A stretch of 64,000 nucleotides of DNA from Archaeoglobus sp. JdFR-27 (GTDB lineage Archaea; Halobacteriota; Archaeoglobi; Archaeoglobales; Archaeoglobaceae). The position numbers were made by a program, and so were the translations under genes. Positions 3,942 to 12,727 of the stretch are shown here, piece after piece. Numbering within the stretch: the stretch's first letter is position 1; every line of letters begins with the position of its first letter. Below the pieces are notes generated by a model that made no database searches, had not been told where the DNA came from, and was given only the letters and a program-made list of their open reading frames with translations. The stretch covers positions 62,001-126,000 of the forward strand of contig MTMO01000040.1 of assembly GCA_002011235.1 (NCBI GenBank), in the 5' to 3' direction.

Positions 3942-3961
3942 GGGAAGAGTTTTTGATTTTA

Positions 3962-3976
3962 AGTATTTAAAAATAT
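3962..3976 (-). promoter_or_regulatory. TATA box for hjc
   Basis: Minus-strand ATATTTTTAAATACT, centred about 26 bp before the GTG start of hjc and sharing its core with the bioY box. Confidence 0.6.
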
Positions 3977-4082
3977 TTAACTTGGCAAAATTTCGTAAAA
4001 ATTCAACTGTAAAGCTGAAAGCAGCTAAAAGCTAAAACCGATAACCGCTAAGATTAACTATCCCTTTTCCTCAATTCAATGC

Positions 4083-5042
4083 ATGGAAATCAGGATGTTA
4101 AGGATTAAACTTCCTATTGAGGGTCCGGAATTCTCAACCATTTATGCCTTGGATAACGGAAAAGAAACCTATGTGGTAGATGGTGGGTATATAAGCGAAA
4201 GATCTGTGAATGAGGTTAAGTCTGGGCTTGAAGGAATGGGGATATCCATCTCTGACTCCAAATTCCTACTCACCCACCACCATATAGATCATGTTGGTGT
4301 CGCAATTTGGAAGAAGGTGAATGCATGGATGCATCCTTTAGAAATACCTTTTCTGAAACTTTATACAGATCCCCTGTATTTTGCTCGCCCGTATATGGAA
4401 TGGACGAGAAAGTATGGAATTGACATGGAGTTTATCAGACCATTAACATCCCTTTTTACAGCAAAAAAAGCGCCGAACTCTTACAGCACGGGAATTAAAA
4501 TTGAAGTCAAGGGCAAAATCATGCCTCTCGAGGATGGAGAGAAGATGAACGGAATTAAGATAATTCACACTCCCGGCCACTCTCCTGGCCATCTCTGCTT
4601 TTACCTACCTGAAGCAAAGGCTATGTTTTCCGGAGATCTCGTTTTGAGTGTAACCACAACACACGTCGGTTATTACCCCGGCTATAGCACGGATCCTGTT
4701 GGAGATCAAATAAAAAGCTTAGAAAAACTGTTGAGTTACGAGATAGATACGATATATCCAGCCCATGAAGATATAATCAAAAAACCGAGGGAAAGAATCC
4801 ATGAGTTAATCGGACATTACGAAGGAAGGATGGAGGAAATTCGATCTTTACTTGACAAACCTGCAAAAGTTGTGGATATTGCTTCAAAAGTTGCTTGGAC
4901 TACAGGAAACTTTGAAAAGCTTAGCGGATGGGGTAAAGTTCTGGCCATCAGCGAAACCCTTGCATTTCTCAAGAGACTGGTGTTTGCAGGAAAGGCAAAG
5001 GAGGTTGAAACAGACGGCGTGCATTATTTCTCTTCTGTTTAA
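4083..5042 (+). CDS. Metallo-beta-lactamase fold hydrolase with C-terminal winged-helix-like region
   Basis: A 319-residue hydrolase with the zinc-binding motif T-H-H-H-I-D-H-V-G at about residues 64-72, the second histidine in H-T-P-G-H-S-P-G-H, and an F-S-G-D-L metal-bridging aspartate, followed by Y-P-A-H. The C-terminal 70 residues (helical, A-I-S-E-T-L-A-F-L-K-R-L near the end) resemble the extension of LACTB2/glyoxalase-II-like proteins. All metal ligands are present, so it should be active; the substrate cannot be told from sequence. It converges on ahbC across an 8-bp repeat array. Confidence 0.85.
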   Translation: MEIRMLRIKLPIEGPEFSTIYALDNGKETYVVDGGYISERSVNEVKSGLEGMGISISDSKFLLTHHHIDHVGVAIWKKVNAWMHPLEIPFLKLYTDPLYFARPYMEWTRKYGIDMEFIRPLTSLFTAKKAPNSYSTGIKIEVKGKIMPLEDGEKMNGIKIIHTPGHSPGHLCFYLPEAKAMFSGDLVLSVTTTHVGYYPGYSTDPVGDQIKSLEKLLSYEIDTIYPAHEDIIKKPRERIHELIGHYEGRMEEIRSLLDKPAKVVDIASKVAWTTGNFEKLSGWGKVLAISETLAFLKRLVFAGKAKEVETDGVHYFSSV

Positions 5043-5060: not shown

Positions 5061-5160
5061 TCAATAACTCAATAACTCAATAACTCAATAACTCAATAAC
5101 TCAATAACTCAATAACTCAATAACTCAATAACTCAATAACTCAATAACTCAATAACTCAA
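5061..5160. repeat. Perfect 8-bp tandem array, 12.5 copies of TCAATAAC
   Basis: Twelve and a half uninterrupted identical copies of TCAATAAC fill the gap between two convergent genes. Because 8 is not a multiple of 3, the array places TAA (plus strand) and TGA (minus strand) in every reading frame once per 24 bp. The last codons and stop of ahbC on the minus strand are encoded by the array itself. Confidence 0.98.
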
Positions 5161-6354
5161 TGAATCCCCATAAATCTCCGCTCGAGAAAGATAGCAGTCT
5201 GGGTCATTACCCCATAGATCTCCAGCTCTTAATGCTCTGAGTCGGAATCCCCCGCAAACCTCTTTAAATCTGCAAATTCCGCATTTATCTCCTCTGATAA
5301 AATCCAATTTTCTCCTAAGTTTTAAAAGTAACTCATCTTTTGGATTAAGCCAGATCTCCTTAAAACTCTGTTCTCTAATATTCCCGCAAGTATAGTCCCA
5401 CCAGAACTGATTTGGATGGACATTACCATACATGTCGACATTCGCTAGTCTTTCTCCACTCCCGTCTCCTCCCCTATACTTTATGAACTCCAGGATTTTG
5501 GCTGCATATTCGGCATCTTCTTTCACTAGTTTAAGGTAAGCATAGACCGCATCAGCTGGGTTGTCTACAGTAAGAACTTCTGTATTGTGTCCTTCATCCA
5601 CCAATTCAATCGCCTTTTCCATCAACCAGTCGATAAGTTCCCTTCTTTCCTTAAGGCTTATATCATCCTTGAAATCCGCTCTTCCTGAAGGAACGAGATG
5701 ATACAGGCAAAACCTAGGGATTTCCTCCTCTGCTAAAACATCAATGACTCCCTTAACATCCTTCAAGTTGTATCTTGTTACAGTGAATCGAATTCCTGTT
5801 AGCAATCCAGCATTTTTTGCGTTGATCAGTCCCTTGAGAGCTTTTTTAAACGCATGCTTCCTGCCCCTAAAGAAGTCGTTCGTTTTTTCAAGCCCATCAA
5901 CACTCACACCTACATAGTCAAACCCTGCCTCTTTCAGTTTATCAGCAGTTTCTTCTGTTATTAAGGTTCCATTTGTGGACAGAGAACATCTTATACCTTT
6001 TTTAGATGCATAAGAAGCAAGTTCAAAGATATCTTTCCTCAACAAAGGTTCACCACCACTGAAGAGAAGTACGGGAGTTCTTATCTCTACCAATTCATCG
6101 ATAAATCTTTTTATCTCCCCGGTGGAGAGTTCTTTGGCTTTTTTAGAGTCGTCAAAATCAGCATCAAAATCAGCATCAGCATAACAATGAATGCATCTGA
6201 GGTTGCATCTTGCCGTAACGTTCAAAACAACGACTGGTCGAATGTTTCTGCGCAATTCTCTGAGCTTCTCAGGTATAAGACTGGGGTCTCCACCATAGGT
6301 TATAACCTCTGAAACCGTAGCCTTCCCCGTGAGCATTTTTGTGAGGCTGATCAT
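5149..6354 (-). CDS. ahbC: Radical SAM/SPASM enzyme of the alternative haem pathway (AhbC-like)
   Basis: A protein of about 401 residues. The radical SAM motif is C50-N-L-R-C54-I-H-C57, preceded by V-V-V-L-N-V-T-A-R, and the glycine motif F-S-G-G-E-P-L follows. The C-terminal SPASM region has H-P-N-Q-F-W-W, T-C-G-N-I and C-G-I-C-R-F-K-E-V-C. The opening M-I-S-L-T-K-M-L-T-G and the H-P-N-Q-F-W-W block fit AhbC, which removes acetate side chains from didecarboxysiroheme; AhbD is the closest alternative. A frame opens at TTG 6372, but a TATA-like box at 6375-6390 favours ATG 6354. The final residues S-L-S-Y and the stop come from the 8-bp repeat. Confidence 0.78.
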   Translation of the reverse strand: MISLTKMLTGKATVSEVITYGGDPSLIPEKLRELRRNIRPVVVLNVTARCNLRCIHCYADADFDADFDDSKKAKELSTGEIKRFIDELVEIRTPVLLFSGGEPLLRKDIFELASYASKKGIRCSLSTNGTLITEETADKLKEAGFDYVGVSVDGLEKTNDFFRGRKHAFKKALKGLINAKNAGLLTGIRFTVTRYNLKDVKGVIDVLAEEEIPRFCLYHLVPSGRADFKDDISLKERRELIDWLMEKAIELVDEGHNTEVLTVDNPADAVYAYLKLVKEDAEYAAKILEFIKYRGGDGSGERLANVDMYGNVHPNQFWWDYTCGNIREQSFKEIWLNPKDELLLKLRRKLDFIRGDKCGICRFKEVCGGFRLRALRAGDLWGNDPDCYLSRAEIYGDSLSY

Positions 6355-6589
6355 TCTCTTCGCATATAACAAAAGTTTATTTTAAATTTTCTCCGGTGCG
6401 TGGGATACCTGAAGACGGTGAATAAAATAATTTTTAAGGATTTAAATTTTGCGTGGTTCTGGATCGTTTAAGGTGTAAAGGCGTTCAAGGTGCATCCTAA
6501 CGCTTTAACGTTTATGACTTAAACGATAAGTGTTGAAGAAAAAATCAATCCGCGCAAAATTCTTTTATCCTTGCTTAGATCTTATCGAG

Positions 6590-8739: not shown

Positions 8740-9426
8740 ATGAAAATAACGTGGTTTGGACATGCGGCCTTTCTGCTTGAAGGATCGAAAAGGATACTGA
8801 TTGATCCGTTCCTGACGGGAAATCCAAATGCTTCGATAAGGCCTGAAGAGATAGAAACCGATGTCATCATCGTAACCCACGGCCACGGTGATCATTTGGG
8901 CGATGCGGTTGAGATCGCAAAGAAAAATGATGTTCCGGTTGTTTGCATTCACGAACTCTCTAGATATCTATCAAAGAAAGGAGTTGAAGCCGTGGGAGTG
9001 AATATTGGAGGAACGGCCAAATTCAGAGGGGTAAGCGTTACTCTCGTTCATGCTTTGCATTCCGCTGATGTTGAGGAGGACGATCAACTAATTAGCACTG
9101 GCCAGGCTGCCGGAGTCATAGTGGAGCTCGATGGAGTTAGAGTTTATCATACGGGCGATACAGATGTTTTTCTGGATATGCAGCTTATAGGGGAGCTTCA
9201 CAAACCCGATGTTATGCTCGTTCCGATAGGCGACTGGTACACGATGGGTATAAAAGGAGCAGTCAAGGCTTTGGAGCTTGTAAAGCCGAAATATGCAATT
9301 CCAATGCATTACAACACGTTTCCAGTGATAGAACAGGATCCAGAGGATTTCAAAAAGGCTGTCGAAGAAGCCGGACTTGACACCAAAGTGGTCGTTCTGA
9401 ATCCCGGCGAATCCTTTGAAGTTTAA
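8740..9426 (+). CDS. UPF0173 family metal-dependent hydrolase
   Basis: A 228-residue metallo-beta-lactamase-fold protein of the UPF0173 family. The opening M-K-I-T-W-F-G-H-A-A-F and I-D-P-F are followed by the metal motif T-H-G-H-G-D-H-L-G, then Y-H-T-G-D-T-D-V-F and the C-terminal P-M-H-Y-N-T-F-P. The start is supported by a GGGGGTGA ribosome binding site about 6 bp upstream and a TATA-like box near 8688-8698. The natural substrate of the family is not known. Confidence 0.93.
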   Translation: MKITWFGHAAFLLEGSKRILIDPFLTGNPNASIRPEEIETDVIIVTHGHGDHLGDAVEIAKKNDVPVVCIHELSRYLSKKGVEAVGVNIGGTAKFRGVSVTLVHALHSADVEEDDQLISTGQAAGVIVELDGVRVYHTGDTDVFLDMQLIGELHKPDVMLVPIGDWYTMGIKGAVKALELVKPKYAIPMHYNTFPVIEQDPEDFKKAVEEAGLDTKVVVLNPGESFEV

Positions 9427-9530
9427 CTGGATTTTTTATTGTTTTGATTTGTTTTTAAGTTTGTTTTTTGGTTGCATTGGTAGCATCAAATAATTTCAAT
9501 ATCAGATAATTTCACCAACCAATTTTTCAT

Positions 9531-9600
9531 CCATATCCATCCATATCTATCCATATCTATCCATGTCTGTCCAGTTCATCCCACGTTTATCCGTATCAGC
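9531..9600. repeat. 10-bp tandem repeat, seven degenerate copies of CCATATCTAT
   Basis: Seven consecutive 10-bp units in exact register (CCATATCCAT, CCATATCTAT twice, then CCATGTCTGT, CCAGTTCATC, CCACGTTTAT, CCGTATCAGC) decay toward the stop codon of the HgcAB-like gene. They lie between two convergent genes. Confidence 0.85.
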
Positions 9601-9602
9601 TT

Positions 9603-10805
9603 TCATTCAATTTTTATCACTCTCTTCCCCATGAGATTCAGTTTGAATCTCCTTACAATCTCAGGAGTAATTATTTCATCTTCCGGACTCTTAAAATAGA
9701 GGGCATCAAAGGGACATTGGACTATGCATGCTCCGCATCTAACGCATTTCTCAGCCCTTACTATCGTTGTGGTATGTAGCTCTCTGTTCACCCTATAGCA
9801 ATTTCTAGGACAAACCTGCTCGCATAAGGCTACTCCTCTACATCTCTCAACATCAAGAAAAACCTCCAGAAATCTGTCCTTGTGCAAACCACTTTTGTAT
9901 AGGGGAGTGCTTCCCATCAGATCCATGCTCAGGATTAGAACGATTATAAAGGAAAGCACAGCCCAGCGTAGGACAAATTCAAGTGTAAGTCCGGCCAAAA
10001 GACTGTAGATAATGAGGCAGAGCATAACGATTCCCCATAAAATCAGCTGGAAACCCCCCTTCCCAAAATCGAAAAATATAAATCCGATTCTCCTACCTTC
10101 GGAACTTAGCCAGCGACTGTAAAGGGGGAAAGTGAGGAAAATAAAAAAGGATAAGCTCCAAATCGTGAATGCAGTAGGAAAAATCATTTCTGGCCACAAG
10201 GGAATCATGATTAAAGCGGAGAGAATTGAAATTGGAAATGCCCATGCAATGGCCATTTCAATGCGTTGCAACAAAGGAAACTTCACTTCTCTCATTTCTG
10301 GAGTTTTCTTAAGCTTATTTTCTATGAATGCTGGAATATCTTCGGAATAAACTGGGCCCCAGATAACGTTCCACCCGGTTTTCTCCTTAATAACCTTCGA
10401 TTCAACACCCGTTGCTGCCAGTTGGGGGAGTATCACATTTCTATGGTCAACGAGATCTTCAATTCCGCTCGTCTTCAGCACAGAAATGACATCATGGTTT
10501 GTGAGGTGTCCACCTGTGGAAGCACACCACACGTTAATTCCTCTGCTGTTGGCAACTAGTAGATAACAGTCCATACCTCTCAAAGCCCTTTTTACCCTCT
10601 CAACGGTTAGATGGTAGTTGCAGGTTAGAAAAACTGGAGAAGTTCTGTCTGGGTTTCCTATTTTAATCAAACCGGTTTTGCAAAGGAGGGGAAACATCCT
10701 GAGCAAAGTCTCGATGATGTTTATGAAGATATATCTGAGGTATCCGAAGTCGTAAATCTTTGATATTCCTTTCTTTGCTTTTTCCGGCTTGGCTTTCTTA
10801 GCCAT
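9603..10805 (-). CDS. HgcA/HgcB-like fusion: corrinoid-binding membrane protein with 2x[4Fe-4S] ferredoxin domain
   Basis: A 400-residue protein in three parts. Residues about 45-165 form a corrinoid-binding domain of the HgcA/CdhD type with N91-V-W-C94-A at the cap-helix position; in HgcA this cysteine is the cobalt ligand. The motif continues S-T-G-G rather than HgcA's A-G-K-G. H-R-N-V-I-L-P-Q-L and W-G-P-V-Y also match that family. Residues about 183-295 hold four to five membrane helices. The C terminus is a ferredoxin with C322, C328, C332, C336 (unusual C-x5-C-x3-C-x3-C) and C354, C357, C360, C364. The vicinal cysteine pair of HgcB is absent. It overlaps the upstream methyltransferase by 8 bp. 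A redox-driven corrinoid methyl transfer is likely; mercury methylation is not implied. Confidence 0.8.
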   Translation of the reverse strand: MAKKAKPEKAKKGISKIYDFGYLRYIFINIIETLLRMFPLLCKTGLIKIGNPDRTSPVFLTCNYHLTVERVKRALRGMDCYLLVANSRGINVWCASTGGHLTNHDVISVLKTSGIEDLVDHRNVILPQLAATGVESKVIKEKTGWNVIWGPVYSEDIPAFIENKLKKTPEMREVKFPLLQRIEMAIAWAFPISILSALIMIPLWPEMIFPTAFTIWSLSFFIFLTFPLYSRWLSSEGRRIGFIFFDFGKGGFQLILWGIVMLCLIIYSLLAGLTLEFVLRWAVLSFIIVLILSMDLMGSTPLYKSGLHKDRFLEVFLDVERCRGVALCEQVCPRNCYRVNRELHTTTIVRAEKCVRCGACIVQCPFDALYFKSPEDEIITPEIVRRFKLNLMGKRVIKIE

Positions 10806-11472
10806 ACTTTCCCTCCTGCTCAGCTTTTCTTGCCAAAATCTCGACGAAGTTTCCCAATTTATTCCATCTGGCTAATTCTATTTTGAAGCCTGCCCTCTCT
10901 ATTTTCTCCTTCAAGTTTCTGACGGGTTTCGTAGTCGTTTGAGTTAGAATGTAGGCGATGAGCACAAACGGGAATCTTACAATCCAACTGACGATTCTCT
11001 TAACATTACTTTCTGGAACAACTTCGTCTGCAACGAGTAGCATCCCTCCATTCCTTAGAATTCTTCTGATCTCCTTCAAAGTGAATTCTAACTCATCATC
11101 GCTCAATTCGGAAAAGCATAATCCACTCATCACAACATCGTAACTTTCATCCTTCTCTTCTCCAAGTTCTGCAACGCCCATCTCGATGAATTCGGTGTTC
11201 TCATTTAGGTTCAATTCTTTCGCTTTTCTCTCAGCTATCTCAAGCATTCGGGAATTGATGTCGATACCCTTCACTTTTGCTCCTTTCTTTGCAGCCCTTA
11301 ACGCTAATGCTCCGGTTCCACAACCAACATCTAGAACTCTCTGTCCCTTTTTGATGTGAGATGTTAGGCGGTCGTACACTTCATCCAACTTTCCAAGGGT
11401 AAGGATTCGAATACCCCTGTCATATCTACTTGGAATGGATTCGAGTATTCTCATCAAGATATAGGTGCTCAT
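10798..11472 (-). CDS. SAM-dependent methyltransferase partner of the corrinoid protein (CpaM-like)
   Basis: A 224-residue class I methyltransferase. Motif I is V-L-D-V-G-C-G-T-G-A-L (about residues 46-56), G-I-D-I-N is the acidic ribose-binding strand, and V-V-M-S-G-L-C-F-S-E-L fits the substrate side. A hydrophobic stretch (W-I-V-R-F-P-F-V-L-I-A-Y) suggests membrane contact. The stop overlaps the start of the HgcAB-like gene, so the two are co-translated. By context it fits the corrinoid protein-associated methyltransferase type; methylating the bound corrinoid from SAM is the simplest inferred role. A TATA-like GGTTTAAACC (11496-11507) lies about 30 bp upstream. Confidence 0.75.
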   Translation of the reverse strand: MSTYILMRILESIPSRYDRGIRILTLGKLDEVYDRLTSHIKKGQRVLDVGCGTGALALRAAKKGAKVKGIDINSRMLEIAERKAKELNLNENTEFIEMGVAELGEEKDESYDVVMSGLCFSELSDDELEFTLKEIRRILRNGGMLLVADEVVPESNVKRIVSWIVRFPFVLIAYILTQTTTKPVRNLKEKIERAGFKIELARWNKLGNFVEILARKAEQEGKYG

Positions 11473-11654
11473 TTGGTTTTCCCCTTATGATCAATCGATG
11501 GTTCAGGTTTAAACCTTTGGGCCTCTTTTCAAAGCTCTTAAAGTCTTCTTTAAAATTTATAAAAAATCTTATCATCAGAAAAAAGAAAAGCTTAAGTGCC
11601 AAATTCATTATAGTAGTAGTGTTGTAAGTGGGTAGTGTGTGAGTAATGTGATCT

Positions 11655-11808
11655 ACTGATCCGGTGATCCAGTGATTCAATGATCCCACGTGATCCCACA
11701 TGATCCCACGTGATCCAAATATTGGATCCAAATGTAAGTAAAATATGGTGATCCATAGTGATCCATGGTAATTCAAGGTAATTCAAGGTAATTCAAGGCA
11801 ATCCAAAA
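11655..11808. repeat. 10-bp-spaced repeat array, consensus TGATCCAAGG
   Basis: About fourteen imperfect units of TGATCCCACG, TGATCCATGG and TAATTCAAGG recur, with two runs in exact 10-bp register (starts 11681, 11691, 11701, 11711; and 11749 to 11799 in steps of 10). It occupies most of the gap between the corrinoid operon and the next plus-strand gene; no gene is visible in 11473-11865. Confidence 0.85.
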
Positions 11809-11865
11809 ATAATCCCAAAAAAGGTAACCTAAACATGAAAATATGAAAATATGAGAGGTTGCATC

Positions 11866-12096
11866 ATGCCCGAACTACAGCAGTTGAACAAACATCTGAT
11901 AATCAAATCCCGGAAGGCGGTTGTTGTGGCAGAGATCTCAGATGGGAAAATCTTGAATGTGTACTGTGACAACTGGCAGAGATGCAAAGAGGCAAAGATA
12001 CTTGCCAGTAGATGTCCACCGTACTGTGAGTTCATAGTTGCGATAAAACAACATCTGAAAGGAAGACCCTCTAAATTCTCGATTAAGGAACTTTAA
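11866..12096 (+). CDS. Hypothetical 76-residue cysteine-containing protein
   Basis: A small basic protein that I do not recognise. It has four cysteines in a pattern that could bind zinc: Y-C-D-N-W-Q-R-C and R-C-P-P-Y-C-E. The start at 11866 (M-P-E-L-Q-Q) is preferred over 11851 because a GAGGT ribosome binding site lies 8 bp before it. The gene converges on the DUF429 gene, with 19 bp between stops. Confidence 0.65.
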   Translation: MPELQQLNKHLIIKSRKAVVVAEISDGKILNVYCDNWQRCKEAKILASRCPPYCEFIVAIKQHLKGRPSKFSIKEL

Positions 12097-12115: not shown

Positions 12116-12691
12116 TCACTTTACTTCAGGCTTTGGAATGAGAATACTCCCATCTTCTCCAGATACAAACTCTGCTTCTCCCCCAATATAGAGCTCAACT
12201 GTTAGGGCCGCTATTGCAGCGTCAACGAGATCTGGGTTCTCAAGATCATCGAATTCTAAATATTTCCTGAGTTCAAGCTTTATCCTTTCAAGTCCAGTTT
12301 TTCTGTTCTTTTTTGACTCTGGAGCTATACCGAGTATCTTTCTCGTTGCAAACGGATAAACTTCAAAAACCCTTACGGAGTTGTTTTCTAACAGTTGAGC
12401 TATTTCAATCCCCTTCAGTGTAACAGGCCTGAAAAACTCAGCTCCAGAGGGAAAAAGTCTGATTCCGAACTTATATAACTTCTTTTCACACTCCCTCAAA
12501 CTGCCTTTTTTTGGAAGTGAAAGGGGAGCGTCGATTCCTGCAAAATCGACTTTAAGAAGGTTAATTTTATCTAGATCAAGCTCTCCTGGCTTTTCTGGTT
12601 TTTCCAACTCCCCTTTCCCAACAACTTCTTTTTCACGACAAACAACATAGTGAGAATGCTTTATCCCAACATCAACACCAAGAACCCTCAT
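12116..12691 (-). CDS. DUF429 family predicted nuclease (RNase H-like fold)
   Basis: A protein of about 191 residues. It begins M-R-V-L-G-V-D-V-G-I-K, the first strand of an RNase H-like fold with its catalytic aspartate. F-A-G-I-D-A-P-L-S-L-P follows with a second acid, and D-L-V-D-A-A-I-A-A-L near the C terminus carries the last. These are the DUF429 landmarks. The longer frame from TTG 12727 is rejected because the conserved fold begins at the ATG at 12691. It is divergent from rps13 and shares the AT-rich promoter region. Confidence 0.85.
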   Translation of the reverse strand: MRVLGVDVGIKHSHYVVCREKEVVGKGELEKPEKPGELDLDKINLLKVDFAGIDAPLSLPKKGSLRECEKKLYKFGIRLFPSGAEFFRPVTLKGIEIAQLLENNSVRVFEVYPFATRKILGIAPESKKNRKTGLERIKLELRKYLEFDDLENPDLVDAAIAALTVELYIGGEAEFVSGEDGSILIPKPEVK

Positions 12692-12727
12692 CCTTCTCGA
12701 ACCCACAAATCTAGCAAACCTACACAA

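Follow-up and report, generated by a model that had tools for sequence, protein, structure and literature searches.

A putative two-component SAM/corrinoid methyltransferase in Archaeoglobus sp. JdFR-27: an HgcAB-like fusion protein and its methyltransferase partner CpaM

We report that a 64,000-nucleotide stretch of contig MTMO01000040.1 of Archaeoglobus sp. JdFR-27 (referred to as the window) carries, on the minus strand, a gene for a class I SAM-dependent methyltransferase that overlaps the start of a gene for a protein combining a corrinoid domain, membrane helices and a ferredoxin. The setting of the finding is the original role and the origin of the HgcAB mercury-methylating proteins. 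The features of the locus, in window coordinates, are as follows.

9427 to 11850, no strand: interval holding the cassette, absent in six relatives where the flanking genes directly or almost directly adjoin each other
9603 to 10805, minus strand: HgcAB-like fusion protein, 400 aa, with corrinoid domain, membrane helices and dicluster ferredoxin (NF043039, PF03599 CdhD, structure model)
9690 to 9863, minus strand: dicluster ferredoxin domain at the C-terminus of the fusion, residues 315-372; V325 replaces the second cluster I Cys, Cys336 is extra and there is no C-terminal Cys (profiles, alignment)
9915 to 10274, minus strand: membrane region of the fusion, residues 178-297, four strong hydrophobic helices (model and hydrophobicity)
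10317 to 10691, minus strand: corrinoid domain of the fusion, residues 39-163 (profile and fold matches)
10524 to 10526, minus strand: codon of Cys94, whose thiolate is predicted to be the lower axial ligand of cobalt (Cys kept in 36 of 36 relatives; role of HgcA Cys93)
10798 to 10805, minus strand: 8-nt overlap ATGGCTAA of the CpaM stop and the fusion start, pointing to translational coupling
10798 to 11472, minus strand: CpaM, class I SAM-dependent methyltransferase, 224 aa, first of the pair (NF043040; Coq5/UbiE-like fold)
10939 to 11007, minus strand: conserved hydrophobic helix of CpaM, residues 156-178, with basic residues before it; likely membrane or partner docking
11308 to 11340, minus strand: SAM-binding motif I of CpaM, residues 45-55 (RVLDVGCGTGA region; G50 and G52 invariant)

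The two overlapping reading frames were confirmed at these positions, and a good ribosome-binding site, GGAGG, is present upstream of the fusion start. The membrane helices that the original prediction, made from the letters alone, had placed in the fusion were recovered as four strong hydrophobic segments between residues 185 and 292.

Both proteins belong to kinds already named in NCBIfam. The fusion matched NF043039, "HgcAB-like fusion protein", with 475 bits (cut-off 285, E=1.9e-142) over positions 2-350 of the 350 in the profile, and the methyltransferase matched NF043040, "corrinoid protein-associated methyltransferase CpaM", over its whole length with 294 bits (cut-off 180). Of the profiles named in the original prediction for comparison, Pfam CdhD (PF03599) matched the fusion (E=7.8e-19) and the HgcA and HgcB cut-offs were missed: HgcA (NF040863) gave 170.9 bits with a cut-off of 275 and aligned with the corrinoid domain alone, and HgcB (NF040864) gave 40 bits with a cut-off of 99, the second cluster I Cys being V325 and no Cys following C364. 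The CFeSP large subunit/CdhE profile (NF003195) was likewise rejected (96 bits, cut-off 306; profile positions 321-448 alone aligned). For CpaM the UbiE profile gave 81 bits, well under its cut-off of 158, and a search with the predicted structure returned a Coq5/UbiE-like fold with a best TMq of 0.78, to 4obw. In a tree of 71 sequences (among them 36 fusions and 34 HgcA proteins) one branch with support 98/96 parts the fusions from the HgcA proteins, and the window protein lies inside the fusion set with support 100/99; its nearest relatives are bacterial (Desulfobacterales and KSB1, ~70% identity). A true HgcAB is ruled out by the cut-offs, the motifs, the tree and the absent cysteines, and the claim that the pair is distinct from HgcAB was borne out by the missed cut-offs and the separate clade.

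Fused HgcAB-like proteins from Pyrococcus, Methanococcoides, Kosmotoga and Atribacteria have served as the outgroup in HgcA trees (PMC7438021). No paper on the CpaM partner or on a function was found in the literature searched, which covers few subscription journals. The Pyrococcus fusion presumably corresponds to the computed, putative locus tag PF0729, which a copper-response paper names only as an entry when listing ferredoxins and antioxidant proteins. While the kind itself had been named before, what is new here is the co-occurrence and adjacency of the two genes, their joint in a single frame, a substitute methyltransferase and the insertion, as described below.

The corrinoid domain contains N91-V92-W93-C94-A95 followed by S96-T97-G98-G99, exactly as first noted, and this motif (NVWCASTGG) departs from the N-(V/I)-W-C-A-A-G-K of the HgcA cap helix: NVWCAAGK was present in 35 of 35 HgcA loci, whereas the fusions mostly have xxGG after the Cys and none has the K. 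The residues that contact the corrinoid in HgcA, Thr60, Thr66, Val91 and Cys93 (PMC7305189), correspond with a one-residue shift to T61, T67, V92 and C94 of the fusion, and in the alignment of fusions T61, V92 and C94 are kept in 36/36 and T67 in 35/36. The proposed homology to the corrinoid domain of HgcA and CFeSP held up, with Cys94 aligned to HgcA Cys93 and to residue 374 of the CFeSP large-subunit chain 2h9a_A. Moreover, in a fold search the fusion model matched the HgcA model 9a0b_A (E=6e-10) as well as CFeSP structures, the latter over ~131 residues at 2.6-2.8 Å rmsd; the Cys94 loop in this cofactor-free model is of low confidence (pLDDT about 53), so that the structure check suggested in the original prediction is no more than consistent with Cys94 under the cobalt. 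By analogy with the conserved Cys93 of HgcA, which has the role of lower ligand (PMC7305189, PMC11588087), Cys94 would be the lower thiolate ligand of cobalt (Cys-on ligation).

In the ferredoxin domain, the unusual C-x5-C-x3-C-x3-C spacing ascribed to the first cluster is present (C322-x5-C328-x3-C332-x3-C336), but its reading was refined: it is the usual CxxCxxCxxxCP with the second Cys replaced by V325, and C336 is an additional Cys rather than the fourth position of the same motif, because it is conserved in 30 of 36 relatives. The second cluster I Cys is missing in 28 of the 36 fusions, and 27 of those 28 carry Cys336; among the eight fusions with the usual second Cys, Cys336 is absent in five. 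The extra Cys, four residues past the fourth, thus goes with the loss of the second (27/28), which suggests ligand exchange. Cluster I may be a three-cysteine cluster or may use Cys336 as a substitute ligand, a reading that is suggestive given that the relatives are not independent. Judged by the alignment, the missing second Cys and the extra Cys336 are typical of the family and not peculiar to the window protein. HgcB Cys73 and the C-terminal Cys have no equivalents in the aligned window fusion, and the terminal Cys pair reported as missing is indeed absent, no Cys occurring beyond C364. One divergent fusion (genome G728, locus L131, 2630-4736, minus strand) has a Cys-rich C-terminus, CSCAYC, and extra N-terminal hydrophobic helices.

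Thirty fusion loci were fetched by protein similarity, and in all of the 29 where the contig reaches the upstream side CpaM is the gene immediately before the fusion and shares its strand, a 4-nt overlap being the commonest junction. A co-occurrence survey took in samples of 394, 247 and 297 genomes, one sample for each of three phyla and 938 genomes in all; the fusion was present in 18 (2, 8 and 8 per phylum) and CpaM in 16 (2, 8 and 6), and all 16 CpaM genomes were among the 18 fusion carriers (hypergeometric P about 1e-32, phylogeny ignored). No CpaM was found outside the fusion carriers among these 938 genomes, in about 110 genomes with HgcA-type matches only, or near true HgcA loci within the 1.5 kb examined. 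The genome survey suggested in the original prediction therefore indicates, at the level of sequence, an obligatory pairing. The divergence of CpaM also correlates with that of the fusion (r=0.79, Mantel p=1e-4, 25 loci).

Two fusions lack CpaM. One of them starts within a few dozen bases of the end of its contig. The other, in G728, is the only non-truncated exception, and 13 bp downstream of this fusion lies an unrelated methyltransferase of class I. A PEMT-family gene lies beyond that methyltransferase, further downstream. In another genome, G481 (L105, 1492-3138, minus strand), one open frame spans profile positions 58-216 of CpaM and 1-350 of the fusion. This frame has 548 codons with a linker of ~30 residues and occurs on one draft contig, the N-terminal third of CpaM being missing near the contig end; no other single frame of the two was found among three genomes of that class. 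There is no conserved third gene: the neighbours beyond the pair differ by locus, apart from a few families that each occur in three loci, so that the cassette is self-contained and the context does not reveal its acceptor. Several bacteria have another class I methyltransferase close to the pair (L048:944-1648; L051:3144-3737 and 3943-4665; L099:2716-3264), and in G500 a TetR-like protein, judged by eye and a possible regulator, overlaps the start region of the pair (L103:3236-3880, minus strand).

The genes matching 8740-9426 and 11851-12096 (or 12116-12727) of the window lie next to each other in six relatives, five of which have 110-191 bp between them, and the intergenic sequence of one relative is still alignable with window positions 11544-11597. 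Neither cassette gene was found in other members of the genus and family within the phylum sample. The cassette is a clean insertion, absent in the relatives and probably acquired horizontally, and the sequence comparisons support its horizontal spread as an independent unit. That it is a contaminant of the draft assembly was excluded by the synteny of the flanks with the six relatives and by the neighbouring archaeal genes for ribosomal proteins and RNA polymerase; as to viral carriage, no relatives were found in viral contigs. Short tandem repeats with a 10-bp period (ATCCATATCT; TGATCCCACG; GGTAATTCAA) occur on both sides of the cassette (9529-9573 and 11648-11806), in the interval that is so short in the five relatives, and are possibly marks of the insertion. 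The APS reductase of the host has its best match in the Archaeoglobus fulgidus structure, and the host is probably a sulfate-reducing member of Archaeoglobaceae; its genome also holds a CFeSP-type corrinoid protein. Elsewhere in the window a radical SAM protein (5149-6372, minus strand) is nearest to the AhbC and NirJ1 haem-synthesis families, with 420 and 406 bits, below the cut-offs of 650.

Usual targets of class I methyltransferases are small molecules, lipids, proteins and RNA, and we know of no class I enzyme demonstrated to methylate Co(I), which counts against the reading favoured below. In purified HgcAB the Co(I) is methylated by SAM, and the methyl-Co(III) so formed has the conserved Cys as its lower ligand (PMC11588087); SAM is for this reason the likely methyl source for the fusion too. 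What accounts best for the strict linkage of the two genes, their coupled translation, their joint in one frame and the conserved hydrophobic helix of CpaM is an action of CpaM on the fusion itself, in the simplest case methylation of its Co(I). The reading that we place foremost, at a little less than an even chance, is that the pair constitutes a two-component, membrane-bound SAM/corrinoid methyltransferase in which CpaM charges Co(I) and the acceptor is probably not mercury. In such a system the ferredoxin domain of the fusion would reduce its corrinoid to Co(I), and CpaM with bound SAM would dock on the membrane-bound fusion and transfer a methyl cation to the reduced cobalt. The resulting methyl-Co(III) would have the Cys94 thiolate on its lower side, and the fusion would then hand the methyl group to an acceptor, probably in the form of a radical or carbanion equivalent, which is also the proposal for HgcAB. 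That SAM is the donor, that CpaM is the cobalt charger, the direction of transfer, Cys-on ligation and the class of the acceptor are inferences. The methyl branch of the Wood-Ljungdahl pathway is apparently not required, since 16 of the 30 carriers, many of them incomplete drafts, have no CFeSP match.

Charging of Co(I) by CpaM ranks above its main rival, in our view a rather unlikely one, that the fusion charges itself from SAM as HgcAB does and that CpaM adds a second, ordinary methyl cation to the acceptor or product, yielding a multiply methylated compound. HgcAB was charged by SAM with no added partner methyltransferase (PMC11588087), so that CpaM may be unneeded for charging and may act on the acceptor instead. 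Self-charging also agrees with the lack of CpaM beside true HgcA genes, with the resemblance of the CpaM fold to UbiE/Coq5 and lipid methyltransferases and with the methyltransferase and PEMT-family genes of G728, but CpaM was never found without the fusion and is joined to it in the G481 frame, a pattern that fits CpaM acting directly on the corrinoid protein at least equally well. It is improbable that CpaM and SAM serve only for repair, with accidentally oxidised Co(II) rescued by reductive methylation using ferredoxin electrons while the working donor is another compound, e.g. methyl-tetrahydropterin. Methionine synthase, in which a SAM domain reductively reactivates oxidised cobalamin, is a precedent for such repair, and the fusion carries its own ferredoxin in a host with a CFeSP-type protein; yet a CFeSP is not seen in more than half of the carriers (the 16 above), no conserved methyl-donor gene lies beside the pair, and in HgcAB, the nearest relative to have been studied, the donor at work is SAM (PMC11588087).

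The fusion could also be an unusual mercury methyltransferase, given its homology to HgcA and HgcB and the common Cys ligand, but we regard this as very improbable. Besides the missed HgcA and HgcB cut-offs, HgcB Cys73 and the C-terminal Cys pair, which are important for Hg methylation (PMC7305189), lack equivalents in the fusion, and Pyrococcus furiosus and Methanococcoides methylutens, which carry fused hgcAB, make no methylmercury in culture (PMC5893877, PMC5038027). Furthermore, a true HgcA above cut-off is present in 4 of the 30 fusion carriers, which argues for a different role, the fusion and HgcA not being interchangeable. Mercury is on these comparisons an unlikely acceptor, and the earlier proposal that the acceptor is another compound gains indirect backing, through the absent cysteines and the two non-methylating cultured carriers.

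Returning to the reading with CpaM as charger, a bolder form, to which we give less credence while counting it a real possibility, is that a Cys-ligated membrane corrinoid protein has in CpaM its own dedicated SAM:cob(I)alamin methyltransferase of class I, that the charged protein methylates an unrecognised but widespread acceptor, and that the altered first cluster, with its second Cys lost and Cys336 gained, tunes the protein for a non-mercury acceptor. Charging of a B12 protein by CpaM would, if true, be a new way of loading methyl groups onto B12, and methylation of such a widespread acceptor would hint at what the HgcAB family did ancestrally. If the fused proteins are SAM-fed corrinoid methyltransferases with a dedicated partner, their acceptor would reveal a role of the family besides mercury chemistry. 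With HgcAB shown in 2024 to be fed by SAM, and given the strong pairing, the idea is directly testable by two-protein reconstitution, and gene surveys are helped in that fusion carriers need not be miscounted as mercury methylators.

Among known systems, the fused HgcAB proteins of P. furiosus and M. methylutens (NF043039) have the same order of corrinoid, membrane and ferredoxin parts with a CpaM partner upstream; relative to this family the window member bears a Lys-rich N-terminal extension of ~20 residues and otherwise differs in nothing essential, and the window CpaM likewise adjoins its fusion as other NF043040 members do, with no essential difference. HgcA and HgcB share with the fusion the corrinoid domain with the NVWC cysteine, the membrane helices and the dicluster ferredoxin, whereas the fusion is one polypeptide with G-G in place of A-A-G-K after the Cys, has a CpaM partner, falls in a separate clade and, compared with HgcB, is without Cys73, the C-terminal Cys pair and the second Cys of cluster I. 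The CFeSP large subunit (AcsC/CdhE; PF03599, 2h9a/4djd) has the same corrinoid-binding fold, but the fusion is membrane-bound, is without the TIM-barrel partner, has a Cys in the place of residue 374 and carries its ferredoxin at the opposite end. Finally, CpaM has the fold and SAM motifs of the UbiE/Coq5 class I methyltransferases and is set apart from them by its extra conserved hydrophobic helix and by its occurrence only with the fusion.
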